Shown here: positions 18,125 through 60,081 of the stretch, piece after piece
Layout of the letters: each line of letters opens with the position of its first letter
Numbering within the stretch: the first letter of the stretch is position 1
Assembly: GCF_001536285.1 (NCBI RefSeq)
Contig: NZ_FAOZ01000034.1
Coordinates: 1 to 64,000, forward strand
Length of the DNA: 64,000 nucleotides
Direction of reading: 5' to 3'
From: Parafrankia irregularis
GTDB taxonomy: Bacteria > Actinomycetota > Actinomycetes > Frankiales > Frankiaceae
Notes under the pieces: generated by a model
Told to the model about the DNA's origin: nothing
The model's database searches: none
What the model saw: the letters and a program-made list of their open reading frames with translations, nothing else
Translations under genes and position numbers: made by a program

Positions 18125-18787
18125 AGGAGGAAACTGGGTGCACGCGCTCCGCTCCCGGAGCCGACGGCGTGAGCTTATGGCGAACGCCGCACCGCAGCGC
18201 AGATGCGGTCATCCGGGGTGAGGGCACCGTGGCACACCTGCCACCGCGGCGGATGTGGCCCACGGCCCCCGCCCTGCCTGCCGTCGAAGGCTGCCGGGCC
18301 GGGGTAGGAGCGTGGCGAGGCGGGTGTCGCTGACCGCGTCCAGAGACGCTGCGGCGCGTTCAGGGGCTCCGTAGGCCGGGCCGGAATCTCCCGATTTCGG
18401 CAGGTCGGTTCCGGCATGGATCCGCCCGATGTGGGGAAGGAGCCGAGCGTGGCGGGTCGGTGGAAATCGCGCCGATGCCGTGGTCACCGGGCAGAGCGTC
18501 AGGTGCTCTCACGAAGGGAGACGTCTCGCGGCGCCACTGTCACAAGCCGGCACCAACGAGCCTTTTCCGAAGTCGACTCGGGCTCGCGGCACCCCTGAGA
18601 CCGCGGGCCGTGCGGTGGAAAAGGCTCGATGACTGACACCAGGAACGTTGACAACCTTCGGTGGGATCCCCCGGCGTGGGTCGACATTTGGATCCGCTCC
18701 GGAAGACCACCGAGGCAACCGACTCGCTGGCCGTGCTGATCGAAGGTGGATCGGCCGGCCGGGCCAGGTGAACGGGAGGTGGATCGC
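18125..18787. other. 663-bp gap between comF and hpf
   Basis: No open frame here resembles a gene. It contains the nested inverted repeat listed separately (18557-18628), a TTGACA box at 18648-18653 without a good -10 partner, and the hpf ribosome binding site at its end. Confidence 0.5.
18557..18628 (+). ncRNA. Nested hairpin upstream of hpf (possible leader or small RNA)
   Basis: A perfect 12-bp outer stem (18557-18568 with 18617-18628) encloses an inner 9-bp stem with one G-U pair (18581-18589 with 18601-18609) around an 11-nt loop. It ends 160 bp before the hpf start. It could be a structured 5' leader, a terminator for an upstream transcript or a small RNA. The direction is inferred from the neighbours. 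Confidence 0.35.
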
Positions 18788-19576
18788 GTGGACATCGTGG
18801 TCAAGGGCAGGCACACCGCGGTTCCGGAACGGTTCCGCAGGCATGTCCAGGCCAAGCTCGCCAAGCTTGAGCGGCTCGATTCCAGAGTGATGCGGGTGGA
18901 CGTCGAACACTCGAAGGAGACCAATCCTCGACTGTCCGGCATGTCCGACCGTGTCGAGCTGACCGTCTATTCACGCGGCCCGGTCATCCGTGCGGAGGCT
19001 TCCGCGGGCGACCCGTACGCGGCTCTCGATCGCGCCGCGGCCAAGCTCGCCGAACGCCTGCGGCGTGCTGCCGACCGGAGGGTCCGCCACCACGCCAACC
19101 ATGCCGGCGCGAACCATCCTGGGCCCGGCCGGGCGGGAGCACTGCAGGCCGACCTGGTCCTGCAGAGCACGGGCGAGCCGGCCTCCAACGGGGCCGCCAA
19201 GGTGGCCAGGGGCGTGTTGCACGGTGTTCCGGGCGGGGAGTCCACCGCCGCCGCAGCGGGCAGCGGGCGTGCCGACAGCGACCGTTGGTCGGATGCCGAG
19301 AGCGGCCACGAATCGGACTACTCACCGATGGTGGTACGGGAGAAGACCCACGCTGCCGCGCCCATGACTCTCGACGACGCGCTGTCCAACATGGAACTCG
19401 TCGGCCACGACTTCTACCTGTTCCTCGACGCGAACAGCGGTCTGCCCAGCGTCGTGTACCGCAGGTGCGGATACGACTACGGCGTCATCCGGCTCGCGGG
19501 CTCGGCGGGCCAGAACGGCTCGGGCGACATGAACGGGTCGCGAGAACGCGCGGCGGCGGTCATTTCCGCCGTGTGA
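18788..19576 (+). CDS. hpf: Ribosome hibernation promoting factor, long form
   Basis: 262 residues. The N-terminal ribosome-binding domain begins VDIVVKGRHTAVPERFRRHV; a variable Ala/Gly-rich linker follows, then the C-terminal dimerisation domain VVREKTHAAAPMTLDDALSNM.. to YDYGVIRLAG. Long-form HPF dimerises 70S ribosomes into inactive 100S particles in stationary phase. The GTG at 18788 is preceded by GGAGGT seven bases upstream and matches the usual VDIVVKGR start; a GTG nine bases earlier overlaps the ribosome binding site. Confidence 0.94.
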   Translation: MDIVVKGRHTAVPERFRRHVQAKLAKLERLDSRVMRVDVEHSKETNPRLSGMSDRVELTVYSRGPVIRAEASAGDPYAALDRAAAKLAERLRRAADRRVRHHANHAGANHPGPGRAGALQADLVLQSTGEPASNGAAKVARGVLHGVPGGESTAAAAGSGRADSDRWSDAESGHESDYSPMVVREKTHAAAPMTLDDALSNMELVGHDFYLFLDANSGLPSVVYRRCGYDYGVIRLAGSAGQNGSGDMNGSRERAAAVISAV

Positions 19577-19654
19577 GGGTCGATCCCCCCGGCCGACGTG
19601 GGACCATTTGCCTCGGGTGTCGGACTCCCGGCATCGGTGCACACGGCGGGTTCC

Positions 19655-19698
19655 GTGGGGCGTGCCTGCGACGAGGGGTCGTCGCAGGCACGCCCCAC
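19655..19698. terminator. 20-bp perfect hairpin with GGGG loop
   Basis: Arms 19655-19674 and 19679-19698 are perfectly complementary with a 4-nt loop. It lies 78 bp after hpf and 26 bp before the response regulator ATG, so it may end the hpf transcript or sit in the leader of the next gene. No T-tract follows. Confidence 0.7.
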
Positions 19699-19724
19699 CG
19701 GGGCGGTTCCAGGGGAGGTCGGAG

Positions 19725-20438
19725 ATGACGGTGGACGAGCGGCGTTCCGAGGAGGCGCTGCGGACGCCATCGGAGGCGAATCCCATCCGGGTGCTGATCG
19801 TTGACGACCACGCGTTGTTCCGCCGCGGCCTGGAGATGGTCCTGGCACAGGAGGTCGACATCGAGGTCGTCGGTGAGGCGGCCGACGGCTCGGAAGCGGT
19901 CACCATGGCGGCCGAGATGGCGCCGGACATCGTCCTCATGGACGTTCGCATGCCGCGCCGCGGCGGGATCGACGCCACGAGCGCGATCAAGGAGAAGGTG
20001 CCGAGCGCGAAGATCGTCATGTTGACGATCAGCGATGAGGAGGCCGACCTCTTCGACGCGATCAAGGCGGGTGCCATGGGCTATCTGCTCAAGGAGATCT
20101 CGATCGACGAGGTGGCCGCGGACATTCGCGCGGTCTACAACGGCCAGAGCCTCATCAGCCCGTCCATGGCGTCCAAGCTGCTCAGCGAGTTCGCCGCGAT
20201 GATCAAGACGAAGGACGACCGCCCTCAGCTCCCGACTCCGCGCCTGACCGACCGGGAGATGGAGGTCCTCCGGCTGGTGGCCAAGGGGCTGAACAACCGC
20301 GACATCGCCAAGCAGCTCTACATCAGCGAGAACACTGTCAAGAACCACATCCGCAACATCCTGGAGAAGCTGCAGCTGCACTCCCGGATGGAGGCCGTGG
20401 TCTACGCGGTTCGGGAGAAGCTGCTCGAAATCACCTGA
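19725..20438 (+). CDS. LuxR/NarL-type response regulator
   Basis: 237 residues. The receiver domain has acidic pair D27/D28, phospho-acceptor D73 in LMDVRMP, T101 and K123 (LLKE). The C-terminal LuxR HTH is LTDREMEVLRLVAKGLNNRDIAKQL followed by ISENTVKNHIRNIL. The start ATG at 19725 has AGGGGAGG ahead. No histidine kinase is next to it. A response regulator between hpf and secA is a recurrent actinobacterial arrangement. The preceding hairpin could affect its expression. Confidence 0.93.
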   Translation: MTVDERRSEEALRTPSEANPIRVLIVDDHALFRRGLEMVLAQEVDIEVVGEAADGSEAVTMAAEMAPDIVLMDVRMPRRGGIDATSAIKEKVPSAKIVMLTISDEEADLFDAIKAGAMGYLLKEISIDEVAADIRAVYNGQSLISPSMASKLLSEFAAMIKTKDDRPQLPTPRLTDREMEVLRLVAKGLNNRDIAKQLYISENTVKNHIRNILEKLQLHSRMEAVVYAVREKLLEIT

Positions 20439-56677: not shown

Positions 56678-57325
56678 TCATGATTCTGTTTCTCGCAGTG
56701 CGCCGGCGAGGACCGCGACCACCATTGCGCGGAGGGCATCGGTTCGTGGTGGCGTGCCAGTGCGATCGGCGAACAGCAGATGCCCAGCCCCGATCAGCGC
56801 GGGAGCGAGCGTGTCGATGTCGGCGTCGGCGTTGACGCGACCCAGGTCGCGTTCGGCGGCGAGGTAGGAAGCGATCATGGCTGCGGCCTCCGTCAGGACC
56901 GGGACGCCCACCGGCCAGGTCCGGCGCAGCCGGGCGCGCAGCTCGTCCCGGAAGGTGATGAGGGGGACGATCGCCACGGCCACCGAGGAGAACAGGTCCG
57001 CCAGGACGCCGGTCAGGTTGTCGGCGACGGTTCCGGTGCCGGCGGTCTCGCGCAGGGCGGTGGCCTCGGTGCCGAGTCGGCCGGCGCGGTCGAGCACGAA
57101 CTCGGCCAGGAAGTCGTCGAAGTCGTCGAAGTGCCGGTGCAGGACGCCCTTGGCGCACCCTGCCTCGGCGGTGACCGCCCGGCTGGTCAACGCGCTCGGC
57201 CCCTGCTGGCGCAGGACCCGTTCGGTGGCGTCGAACAACTGGGTGCGCACGTCGCGGATGTGTACCCCTGTCGGCACCGCCGCGTCCTCCTCCTGTGAAG
57301 GCTCCGATCGCTCCCTAGTGGGCAT
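56678..57325 (-). CDS. TetR family regulator, start codon inside its operator
   Basis: 215 residues from the ATG at 57325. HTH LFDATERVLRQQGPSALTSRAV then TAEAGCAKGVLHRHFDDFDDFL, followed by a C-terminal ligand domain. Both its start and that of the divergent methyltransferase lie within one palindrome (57315-57356), so the two genes are probably co-repressed. A later GTG (VPTGVHIRDV) would also work as start but would lengthen the gap. Confidence 0.9.
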   Translation of the reverse strand: MPTRERSEPSQEEDAAVPTGVHIRDVRTQLFDATERVLRQQGPSALTSRAVTAEAGCAKGVLHRHFDDFDDFLAEFVLDRAGRLGTEATALRETAGTGTVADNLTGVLADLFSSVAVAIVPLITFRDELRARLRRTWPVGVPVLTEAAAMIASYLAAERDLGRVNADADIDTLAPALIGAGHLLFADRTGTPPRTDALRAMVVAVLAGALRETES

Positions 57326-57356
57326 GCGCCCACTAGGGTGGGCGCATGCCCACTAG
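57315..57356. promoter_or_regulatory. Perfect 19-bp inverted repeat spanning both start codons
   Basis: Arms 57315-57333 and 57338-57356 with centre TAGG. Each arm carries one ATG, 57323-57325 (tetR, minus) and 57346-57348 (methyltransferase, plus), so both proteins begin with Met-Pro-Thr. A TetR dimer bound here would block transcription and possibly initiation of both. One arm itself contains an inner palindrome (57313-57323 with 57328-57338). Confidence 0.8.
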
Positions 57357-58218
57357 TTCGCAGGATCAACCGCGACCATCGGGGAACGAGCCTCATCGGG
57401 CCAGGCGGGTCGCGGAGTCCTTCGGGGCGGACGCCGAGCGCTACGACCGGACTCGCCCGCACTATCCTGACGCACTCGTCGAGCGGATCGTCGCCGCGAG
57501 TCCCGGGCGCGACGTGGTCGACGTCCTGGACATCCTCGATGTCGGCTGCGGCACCGGGATCGAAGCCCGGCAGTTCCAGGCGGCGGGATGCCGGGTGCTG
57601 GGAGTCGAGCCAGACCCCCGGATGGCCCGGTTCGCGCGGCGCCGCGGAACCGACGTCGAGGTGGCGACCTTCGAGGACTGGGACCCGGCCGGCCGGGATT
57701 TCGACGCGGTCGTCGCCGGCACGGCCTGGCACTGGGTCGACCCGATCGCCGGGGCGGCCAAGGCGGCCCGGGTGCTGCGGCCCGGTGGCCTGATCGCCCC
57801 TTTCCACCACGTCTTCCAGTACCCGCCGGAGATACTGGACGTACTCGGCGCTGCCTACCGGCAGGCCGCGCCGGACACGCCGGTCAACCTCGACCCGCTG
57901 CGCCAGGCCCTGGACGCCTACCAGGCGCTTTTCACCAAGATCGCTGACGGTATCCGTAGTTCGGGCGGGTTCGGTGAACCGGAGCAGTGGCGGTTCGACT
58001 GGGAGCGCACCTACACCCGGGACCAGTGGCTGGACCAGCTACCCACCCACGGCGGGCTCACGCTGCTCCCACCGGATGGGCTGGCGGCGGTCCTGGCGAG
58101 CATCGGCACCGCGATCGACGCGATGGGCGGCAGCCTCACGATGTCCTACGCCACGGTCGCGGTCGTCGCGTCGCGAACCGGCGCCGTCGGATCACAGGGC
58201 GAGTTCGTGGTCCGTTGA
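57346..58218 (+). CDS. Class I SAM-dependent methyltransferase
   Basis: 290 residues. Motif I is LDVGCGTGIEARQF (about 64-77), with VEPDPRM for the acidic post-I residue, then VVAGTAWHWVDP. It resembles methyltransferases 11/25. The N-terminal ~25 residues before SFGADAERYDRTRPHYP are specific to this protein. Its 3' end overlaps the convergent flavin-dependent oxidoreductase gene by 27 bp. Substrate unknown; a small-molecule target is likely given the TetR partner. Confidence 0.9.
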   Translation: MPTSSQDQPRPSGNEPHRARRVAESFGADAERYDRTRPHYPDALVERIVAASPGRDVVDVLDILDVGCGTGIEARQFQAAGCRVLGVEPDPRMARFARRRGTDVEVATFEDWDPAGRDFDAVVAGTAWHWVDPIAGAAKAARVLRPGGLIAPFHHVFQYPPEILDVLGAAYRQAAPDTPVNLDPLRQALDAYQALFTKIADGIRSSGGFGEPEQWRFDWERTYTRDQWLDQLPTHGGLTLLPPDGLAAVLASIGTAIDAMGGSLTMSYATVAVVASRTGAVGSQGEFVVR

Positions 58219-59157
58219 TGCCTGGAGGGCGGGGATCAATGCGCTGACCCGTTCAAGCTGGTCGAGCTGCGAGGTCAGGTCCAGGGCACCCAGCCGGGTG
58301 ACGAGGTGGCGCGCTCCGGCGGCGACATACCGGGCCAGGCCCGTGAGGACCTGGTCGGCCGGGCCGGTGAGCACCGCCTGGATCCTCGCCAGATCGTCCA
58401 GTGGCATCCCGTAGGTGGCCCGGGCGTAGTCCTCCATTGCTCGGCGGCCGCGTTCGGGGTCGTCGTCGATCCGTACCGAGACGAACAGTGCGGGGGTGAT
58501 GTCGCCGTCGGCCCGACCGGCGCCGGCCGCCGCCGTGCGGACGTCCCGGAGCCCGGACGCGTAGTCGGCGGGGTCGGGCGGGTAGGGCAGCCAGCCGTCG
58601 TACATCCGGCCGGTGCGGCCCAGCGCGGCCGGGGTCGCGCCGCCGAGCCAGATCGGTGGGCCGCCCGGCCGGAACGGCCTGGTCGCGGGCGGGAGGTCGG
58701 TGAACCTGAGGAGCTCGCCGTGGAAGGAGCCGGCGCCGTTCCACAACGCCCGCCACAACGCGACCGTCTCGTCCAGTCGGGTGAAGCGCCGTTCCCACGG
58801 CACCTCAGACAGGTCGTAGAACGGGCGGCCGAACGGGCCGGGGAAGCCGGCGCCCACCGCCACCGTGAGCCGCCCGCCGGAGAGCAGGTCGATCGACGCC
58901 AGGGACTGCGCGGCCTGGACCGGCCTGCGCAGGAACGGCAGCAGCGCGCCCGTTCCCAGGGCCACGGCCTCGGTCGCGGGGGCGAGCGCGGCCAACATCG
59001 TCAGCGCTTCGATGCGTGGGCTGATCAGCGTGTCGTTGACGAAGAGCGAGGTGAAACCGAGGCCTTCGGCCCGGCGCCCGAAGGCGACCAGCTCGCGGGG
59101 ATCATCGCCTGGGCCCCACTGGGAGGCGCCGGTCGGAAGCAGTACGCCGATGTTCAT
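58192..59157 (-). CDS. LLM-class flavin-dependent oxidoreductase
   Basis: 321 residues from the ATG at 59157. NIGVLLPTGA, FGRRAEGLGFTSLFVNDTLI and PIWLGGATPAALGRTGRMYDGWLPY match the luciferase-like monooxygenase fold using FMN or F420. Likely oxidises or reduces a small molecule; F420 use is common in Actinobacteria. Divergent from an MmyB-type regulator (90 bp apart) and convergent with the methyltransferase. Confidence 0.9.
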   Translation of the reverse strand: MNIGVLLPTGASQWGPGDDPRELVAFGRRAEGLGFTSLFVNDTLISPRIEALTMLAALAPATEAVALGTGALLPFLRRPVQAAQSLASIDLLSGGRLTVAVGAGFPGPFGRPFYDLSEVPWERRFTRLDETVALWRALWNGAGSFHGELLRFTDLPPATRPFRPGGPPIWLGGATPAALGRTGRMYDGWLPYPPDPADYASGLRDVRTAAAGAGRADGDITPALFVSVRIDDDPERGRRAMEDYARATYGMPLDDLARIQAVLTGPADQVLTGLARYVAAGARHLVTRLGALDLTSQLDQLERVSALIPALQASTDHELAL

Positions 59158-59247
59158 GGCGACGATGCTCGCGGCCGCGTGGTGCGGCAACAATTCCCGG
59201 CAGGGAATGCCCAGCGGCGATACCCAGGCGGGGAAGGCCGTCGGGGA

Positions 59248-60081
59248 ATGCCCGGGAGCCGTCGCCGGTACAACAGATCCGTGGACTTTCCCCGCGCGCT
59301 CCGCGACCGCCGTACCCACCGGCGTCTCAGCCAGCTGGATCTGGCGCTGCGGGCGGGAACCACCCAGCGCCATCTCAGCTTCATCGAGTCGGGCAGATCC
59401 GTCCCCGGCCGGAACATGGTTCTGCGCCTGGCCGAATCACTCGAACTGCCGTTGCGGGAGCGTAACGAGCTGCTGGCCGCCGGATACGCGCCCGTCTACC
59501 CGGAGAGCTCGCTCGACGACCCGGCGCTGGCCCCGGTGCGCGCGGCGATCGAGCACATCGTTCGTGGGCACCTGCCATACCCGGCACTGGTCGTCGACCG
59601 CAACGGTGACCTGATCGCGGCGAACGACACGTTCGACCTGATCACCGAGGGTGCGGCGCCCGAGCTGGTCGGCCCGGGAAAGAACGTCTACCGGCTCGCG
59701 CTGCATCCCGACGGCATCGCGCCGCGGATACGCAACCTCGCCGAATGGGCGCGGCACATCCTGGCGCGCCTGGGCCATCTGACGCGGCTGCGCGCCGAAC
59801 TCGCCGGCTACGTTCCCGAGCTGGCGCCGTCGGACGGGTCTCTCGGTTTCGCGGTTCCGCTCCACCTGGGGTCATCACGCGGTGAGCTGCGCCTGATGAC
59901 GACCGTGACGTCCTTCGCCACCGCCGTCGATGTGACCCTCGCGGAGCTGAAGCTGGAGGCGTTCCTGCCGGTCGACACCGCGACGGCAGCGGCTCTCTCC
60001 GCAGCCGCTCTCTCCGCAGCCGCTCTCTCCGCAGCCGCTCCCTCGGTAGCCGCCCTCTCGGCGGCTACCGAGGCCGGCTGA
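59248..60081 (+). CDS. XRE-HTH regulator with MmyB-like ligand domain
   Basis: 277 residues. HTH ALRDRRTHRRLSQLDLALRAG then QRHLSFIESGRSVPGRNMVL, followed by the MmyB-type domain HLPYPALVVDRNGDLIAAND and LALHPDGIAPRIRNLAEWARHIL. Members often control nearby oxidoreductase genes, here the LLM enzyme. The C-terminus is a stretch of 18-bp repeats (AALSAA). A GTG at 59281 is an alternative start. Confidence 0.87.
   Translation: MPGSRRRYNRSVDFPRALRDRRTHRRLSQLDLALRAGTTQRHLSFIESGRSVPGRNMVLRLAESLELPLRERNELLAAGYAPVYPESSLDDPALAPVRAAIEHIVRGHLPYPALVVDRNGDLIAANDTFDLITEGAAPELVGPGKNVYRLALHPDGIAPRIRNLAEWARHILARLGHLTRLRAELAGYVPELAPSDGSLGFAVPLHLGSSRGELRLMTTVTSFATAVDVTLAELKLEAFLPVDTATAAALSAAALSAAALSAAAPSVAALSAATEAG
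59988..60071 (+). repeat. 18-bp repeats at the regulator's 3' end
   Basis: The units GCGGCTCTCTCCGCAGCC-like recur three to four times and encode AALSAA. They affect only the last ~30 residues. Confidence 0.75.

Follow-up and report, generated by a model that had tools for sequence, protein, structure and literature searches.

The divergent gene pair and the loci compared

The window analysed here (the whole stretch of 64,000 nucleotides of Parafrankia irregularis DNA) carries a divergent pair of genes. On the plus strand, positions 57346–58218 encode a class I SAM-dependent methyltransferase (MTase) of 290 aa (Pfam Methyltransf_11, 1.5e-16), and on the minus strand positions 56678–57277 encode a regulator of 199 aa, MPTGVHIRDVR..., the TetR_N domain of which (PF00440, 1.2e-08, 35.1 bits, cut-off 24) places it in the TetR family. 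Neither protein scored above the cut-off of any NCBIfam family, and a by-sequence search of solved structures returned only remote relatives. The TetR model (mean pLDDT 88.4) matches many TetR-family structures and gives no clear clue to a ligand. For the MTase model (mean pLDDT 82.4) the closest structure is HvrF (9e72), with other small-molecule methyltransferases, including trans-aconitate methyltransferases, among the matches; from the HvrF and trans-aconitate methyltransferase folds we would guess that the MTase substrate is small and acidic, perhaps toxic, and perhaps also the ligand of TetR. Beyond tetR lies a cytochrome P450 gene (55187–56476, minus), and a luciferase-like monooxygenase gene (58192–59172, minus) faces the MTase gene; further on, an ORF resembling a helix-turn-helix regulator and ending at 60081 has a repeated LSAAA tail (about 59980–60075, plus).

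For comparison, TetR relatives came from two sources: the family, in which 16 of 35 genomes gave a match (counting that of the window), and a genome collection, of which the best 80 of 279 loci were kept. Removal from the 101 loci of three without tetR (L002–L004) and three duplicates (L001, L006, L021) left 95, among them the window itself (L005); these loci were collected via TetR similarity and are hence not independent. Of the 86 on which most counts below are based, no two have the same first 60 coding bases; these 86 were also sorted by genus label into 33 groups, family loci without a genus name forming one group. A replicate set of 19 non-duplicate loci came from 33 others (L102–L134), the remaining 14 being duplicates or lacking an MTase frame at the exact match. 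Five of the 21 plasmid records that matched TetR were examined, and ten further loci (L137–L146) were checked for both genes and stand outside the codon and -10 counts.

Two tandem palindromes form the inverted repeat

The earlier note had described a perfect inverted repeat between the two genes, and this description holds: CTAGTGGGCATGCGCCCAC TAGG GTGGGCGCATGCCCACTAG at 57315–57356 has 19-nt arms (57315–57333 and 57338–57356) that are 100% complementary, with 4 nt between them. The two ATGs placed within it are also present, at 57325 (minus) and 57346 (plus) with 20 bp between, and both open frames read Met-Pro-Thr. Such arms lie beyond chance, since 40 simulated windows, drawn from a first-order Markov model that keeps the neighbour frequencies, had longest perfect arms of 9–14 (loop up to 12). 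The window contains one longer perfect inverted repeat, at 19655–19698 (20-bp arms, 4-bp loop, no T run), near a ribosome-hibernation-factor-like ORF (18746–19576) and across the start given for a response-regulator ORF (19608–20438), which probably begins further on; both names were read from the translations.

That the repeat at 57315–57356 serves as one TetR operator, as had been proposed, is borne out by comparison in regard to its operator character, the number being two. O1 (57318–57333) reads GTGGGC-ATGC-GCCCAC within an extended palindrome of 24 bp (57314–57337) and falls between the predicted -35 and -10 of the MTase gene; O2 (57338–57353) reads GTGGGC-GCAT-GCCCAC, has its dyad between 57345 and 57346, and contains MTase codons 1–2 and two bases of codon 3. 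With the tandem pattern RTGGGC-NNNN-GCCCAY, allowing at most two mismatches in O1 and three in O2, tandem operators were found in 86 of the 95 loci, 77 of them without a mismatch, six with one and three with two. Among these 86 the O1 arms are nearly invariant and its four central bases vary. The two complete palindromes keep a fixed spacing: the spacer is 4 nt in 51 loci, 5 in 33, 3 in one and 10 in one, which puts the dyads at a distance of 20 or 21 bp in 84/86 and of 20 bp in the window. The O1 centre is the reverse complement of the O2 centre in just 18 of the 86, and since a long perfect palindrome needs complementary centres, the repeat of the window is largely a by-product of two like sites. 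O1 and O2 are treated here as putative operators, to which TetR would bind.

A wider look recovered three more loci: one with a shorter O1 centre (L008), one with the tandem further off (L067), and one in Nocardia (L091) in which the MTase gene lies upstream of tetR in the same direction, the tandem operator and the embedded start codon staying with the MTase gene. Three loci (L029, L041, L071) have a single palindrome and no MTase hit, and three (L020, L044, L086) have no palindrome. The missing MTase is uninformative at L041, where the sequence extends for 168 bases on that side; for L029, L044, L071 and L092 it extends for about 3 kb. L092 has the tandem operator but no MTase hit within that distance.

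The MTase start codon and its predicted promoter lie in and around O2

Translation of the MTase gene is expected to begin at ATG 57346, the first A of which is the predicted +1 of a leaderless transcript; the next in-frame ATG, GTG or TTG is codon 57. At this place in O2 an RTG stands in 85/86 loci (ATG in 78, GTG in 7) and in all 33 genus groups by majority, as against 42/86 at the mirrored place in O1, and the lone exception, a CTG, is L092, which has no MTase hit. Given that the centre of O1 is variable and that of O2 is constant at the start codon, we argue that the constant bases serve translation and not TetR. The RefSeq annotation, which is computed, also places the MTase start at the O2 ATG in L132, L133 and L134.

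The promoter is predicted from the same loci. A -10 hexamer, TAGGGT, lies at 57334–57339 (plus), beginning 12 bp ahead of the ATG and with 6 nt between hexamer and start codon; A2 and T6 are present in 85/86 loci and the full TANNNT in 62/86, and the -10 is kept by majority in 33/33 genus groups and in 18 of the 19 replicate loci. At the -35 place, TTGACG with at least four matches, 17–18 bp upstream of the -10, occurs in 58/86 loci compared with 2.7% at background positions, a consensus derived from the same loci as were scored; it holds in 20 of the 33 genus groups and in 18 replicate loci. In the window this place (57311–57316, plus, 17-bp spacer) reads CTCCCT, with 2/6 matches, and is probably weak; in the sister species it reads TTCCCT (3/6). 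An E. coli-type consensus scan of 57150–57500 returned no promoter and no terminator-like site.

A survey of leaderless genes (PMC3160421) puts their TANNNT some 12 bp ahead of the start codon, and this is the position of the MTase hexamer. Likewise, as far as the available parts of two other reports go, leaderless mRNAs arise from 21.0% of primary starts in Streptomyces coelicolor (PMC4895711), and in a Mycobacterium smegmatis selection without a Shine–Dalgarno sequence translation needed ATG or GTG at +1 (PMC4633059). It counts against a leaderless start that a Shine–Dalgarno-like 4-nt match precedes that of the MTase gene in 10/86 loci. The comparison favours the leaderless transcript foreseen in the earlier note for the MTase half of the locus (TAGGGT, 6 nt, ATG), and the end of the -10, the +1 and the first three codons, codon 3 by two of its bases, would lie inside O2.

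A mirrored hexamer within MTase codons 3 and 4

Reflection of the MTase -10 about the O2 dyad leads to 57352–57357 on the minus strand, within MTase codons 3–4, where the window reads ACTAGT. A minus-strand TANNNT occupies this place in 68/86 loci, so that two separate hexamers, and not the single -10 of a shared bidirectional promoter, flank the dyad there. The codons concerned are otherwise rare: codon 3 is ACT in 74/86 loci (by majority in 29 genus groups), compared with 26 of 1314 Thr codons in gene bodies, and codon 4 is NTA in 68/86 (25 genus groups; 11 of the 19 replicate loci), compared with 96 of 22607 body codons. NTA is absent at codon 4 in 18/86 and in 8/19 of the further loci. Codon 4 is AGT in the window and AGC in the sister species, the mirrored hexamer being absent from both; in the window it would have been lost or was never present. 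We suggest that in many relatives the mirrored hexamer is perhaps the likely -10 of tetR, lying inside the MTase gene.

A different explanation of NTA at codon 4, which we regard as possible though rather unlikely, is that it reflects outer contacts of TetR with O2, or a requirement that the first codons be AT-rich, and has nothing to do with a tetR -10. In its favour, NTA sits at the edge of O2, and a search for the tetR -35 at spacings of 15–19 found no locus among the 86 with 4/6 matches at any of the five spacings. However, O1, presumably a site of the same protein, has TANNNT on its two flanks in 0 and 6 of 86 loci, from which it seems that TetR does not need the hexamer. Moreover, the fixed bases are limited to T at +10 and A at +11, with GC-rich sequence again from codon 5, and the distance of the mirrored hexamer from the dyad equals that of the MTase -10. 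A tetR -10 in codons 3–4 would agree in part with the suggestion that the promoters run over each other's start, which may apply to the tetR promoter of many relatives; the window is without the hexamer, and its tetR promoter was not placeable, TAGGGA at 57317–57312 (minus) being a weak candidate.

At 11 of the 86 loci (L032, L033, L051, L056, L058, L064, L065, L069, L082, L093, L101) codon 4 is TTA, a codon found twice among the 22607 body codons. Since TTA codons in Streptomyces need the bldA tRNA, the -10 constraint could put the MTase under developmental control in that genus.

The tetR start most likely lies outside the operators

The most likely start of tetR is GTG 57277, preceded at 8 nt by the Shine–Dalgarno sequence AGGAGGAGG (57286–57294, minus). 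A motif search found RTG-Pro-Thr-Gly at the corresponding place in 82/86 loci (GTG in 68, ATG in 14), the motif being also the key by which the start was sought; in the other four the start was assigned by eye (L018 TTG, L079 ATG, L084 GTG, L095 TTG). A Shine–Dalgarno match of at least 4 nt precedes the likely tetR start in 81/82 loci, as against 0/86 at the mirrored O1 place, which speaks against the leaderless tetR transcript that had been expected. P2, T3 and G4 are invariant in 18 aligned TetR proteins, and the computed RefSeq annotation begins tetR at the GTG in L132 and L134 and four codons later in L133.

The earlier note had instead proposed that tetR begins at the ATG at 57323–57325 (minus), inside O1 and in frame in the window, so that both start codons would be set symmetrically in one operator and both genes would be leaderless. 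This model we consider very improbable. The open frames of the window do fit it, and seven other loci have an open frame with ATG at precisely the mirrored position in O1 (8/82 with the window; 11/82 if GTG is counted as well), with some in-frame ATG, GTG or TTG within O1 in 32/82; in-frame start codons of the latter kind are what GC-rich palindromes with GTG ends would give. Against it, the Shine–Dalgarno sequence and the conserved Pro-Thr-Gly belong to the start at 57277, and in the sister species L022, with a 94% identical TetR, the extension of tetR is interrupted by an in-frame TGA. The gap between the tetR start and O1 varies in length (17–113 nt). Over the three frames the mirrored O1 place is distributed as 25/21/36 of 82 loci, being in frame with tetR (25/82) at about the chance rate; a stop precedes O1 in 13/82. 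A start at ATG 57325 is thus unlikely. Considering that the frame is open to O1 in 69/82 loci and that 32/82 offer an in-frame start there, a TetR longer than the GTG-started form may nevertheless be made in some loci. Over the loci compared, the symmetric arrangement of open in-frame ATGs is kept in 8/82, the window included, and lacking in the sister species. Of the two start codons assigned to the operator, that of the MTase gene is in O2 and that of TetR is most likely GTG 57277; accordingly just the MTase half of the reported symmetry looks real.

Occurrence of the tandem operator in other genomes

An exact scan of 393 genomes of the class found the tandem pattern in 40, distributed over five families, at one place each and including the window's own; the pattern demands RTG in O2, and the scan is therefore silent on the frequency of RTG. 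A reversed-pattern control gave no match in the 393 genomes. In the genome of the window (9.5 Mb) no second place matches the extended O1 pattern at fewer than three mismatches. By TetR, Parafrankia sp. EUN1f (94% identical) is the nearest relative with a name. Two TGGGC-NNNN-GCCCA palindromes also lie upstream of an MTase gene in each of two distant TetR relatives (L135 and L136, 43% and 46% identity); operator and start codon are apart there because the MTase is annotated with a leader, and this group may serve as an outgroup for how the start codon entered the operator.

That O1 and O2 belong to a regulator other than the adjacent TetR is scarcely credible, given that TetR and MTase hits adjoin all 40 of the 40 scan places, and that L029 and L071, with tetR and no MTase hit in about 3 kb, yet keep one like palindrome. 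Least credence of all is given to a role of the repeat in the RNA of either gene or of both, where it would form a hairpin serving as attenuator, as terminator or to lock the start codon: the 42-nt repeat does fold at -40.6 kcal/mol (z -9.35), but a long hairpin requires the complementary centres found in so few loci, the arm bases are nearly invariant and do not covary, the predicted leaderless MTase mRNA begins inside the hairpin and its first 55 nt fold like shuffled sequences (z 0.30), and 57150–57500 has no terminator-like site by the consensus scan.

A model for the TetR/MTase divergon

Taken as a whole, the locus is very probably an autoregulated TetR/MTase divergon with two tandem TetR operators, the MTase start codon in O2 and a leadered tetR. 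Sequence comparison supplies the tandem operators, the embedded start, the -10 and -35 places, the likely tetR start and the constraint on codons 3–4. From these we infer how the divergon may work, namely TetR binding and its cooperativity, both transcription starts, the tetR promoter, the ligand and the MTase substrate. RNA polymerase would start at the A of the MTase ATG and yield a leaderless mRNA, O2 spanning the last bases of the -10, the transcription start and the sequence up to codon 3. Two TetR dimers, possibly binding cooperatively about two helical turns (20–21 bp) apart and hence on one face of the DNA, would block MTase transcription by covering the DNA between promoter spacer and codon 3, and they would come off in the presence of a small ligand, which may be the substrate of the MTase. 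In the opposite direction tetR would be transcribed with a leader, from which the GTG, led by its Shine–Dalgarno sequence and lying 40 bp beyond O1, would be translated. In many relatives the tetR -10 may mirror that of the MTase gene about the O2 dyad, and we propose that one bound dimer would then shut both promoters.

For most relatives a further reading has, in our judgement, somewhat better than even chances: a single 24-bp palindrome, TANAGTGGGC-NNNN-GCCCACTNTA, would be at once the operator, two -10 hexamers facing each other, two transcription starts placed back to back at its dyad, and the leaderless +1 with codons 1–4, thereby fixing Met-Pro-Thr-Leu/Ile at the N terminus. On this view the second -10 would have been lost from the window, making it a derived member.

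Relation to known systems

Operators that overlap start codons are known. In Mycobacterium abscessus, the MAB_4384/mmpS5–mmpL5 system (PMC5895659) is alike in the divergent pair with a palindromic operator between the genes, in an operator model with two TetR dimers and in the repression of both regulator and target; as described in the available part of that report, it has a 27-bp intergenic palindrome, whereas here there are two complete palindromes, one of them over the start codon of the target, which is an MTase gene. The reports on leaderless actinobacterial genes (PMC3160421, PMC4895711, PMC4633059) describe, in their available parts, no operator spanning the end of the -10, the +1 and the first codons; the transcription start proposed here is a predicted one. 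Bidirectional promoters (PMC12825309) resemble the present arrangement in their pseudo-symmetric DNA and two opposed polymerase starts, with one binding event preventing the other. According to the available text, however, they share a -10 and their starts are mostly 18 bp apart (also 10 or 23), while here each direction would have its own hexamer, the two being opposed across 12 bp, and the starts are predicted to lie back to back at the dyad. Among the matches listed in searches of the open literature, titles and the openings of abstracts gave no description of this gene pair or of a 24-bp fusion of operator, promoter and start codon, and six operator strings had no match in printed open literature. 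The parts of the system are of known kinds, and their fusion, with operator, promoter, start codon and a probable opposed -10 in 24 bp, which several actinobacterial families retain, was not found described among those matches.

Finally, the locus offers a clear natural case, present in scores of genomes, in which the beginning of a protein seems to be set by the binding site of a repressor, and it opens to experiment the question of how a single 24-bp repressor site could be shared by two RNA polymerases. It also indicates that the start codon of tetR may be misplaced when an open frame alone is trusted. The rare codons at positions 3 (ACT) and 4 (NTA) look to be preserved by needs at the level of DNA, and, if the reading of the 24-bp palindrome is true, such needs would force on the MTase genes of these actinobacteria codons that they otherwise hardly use.
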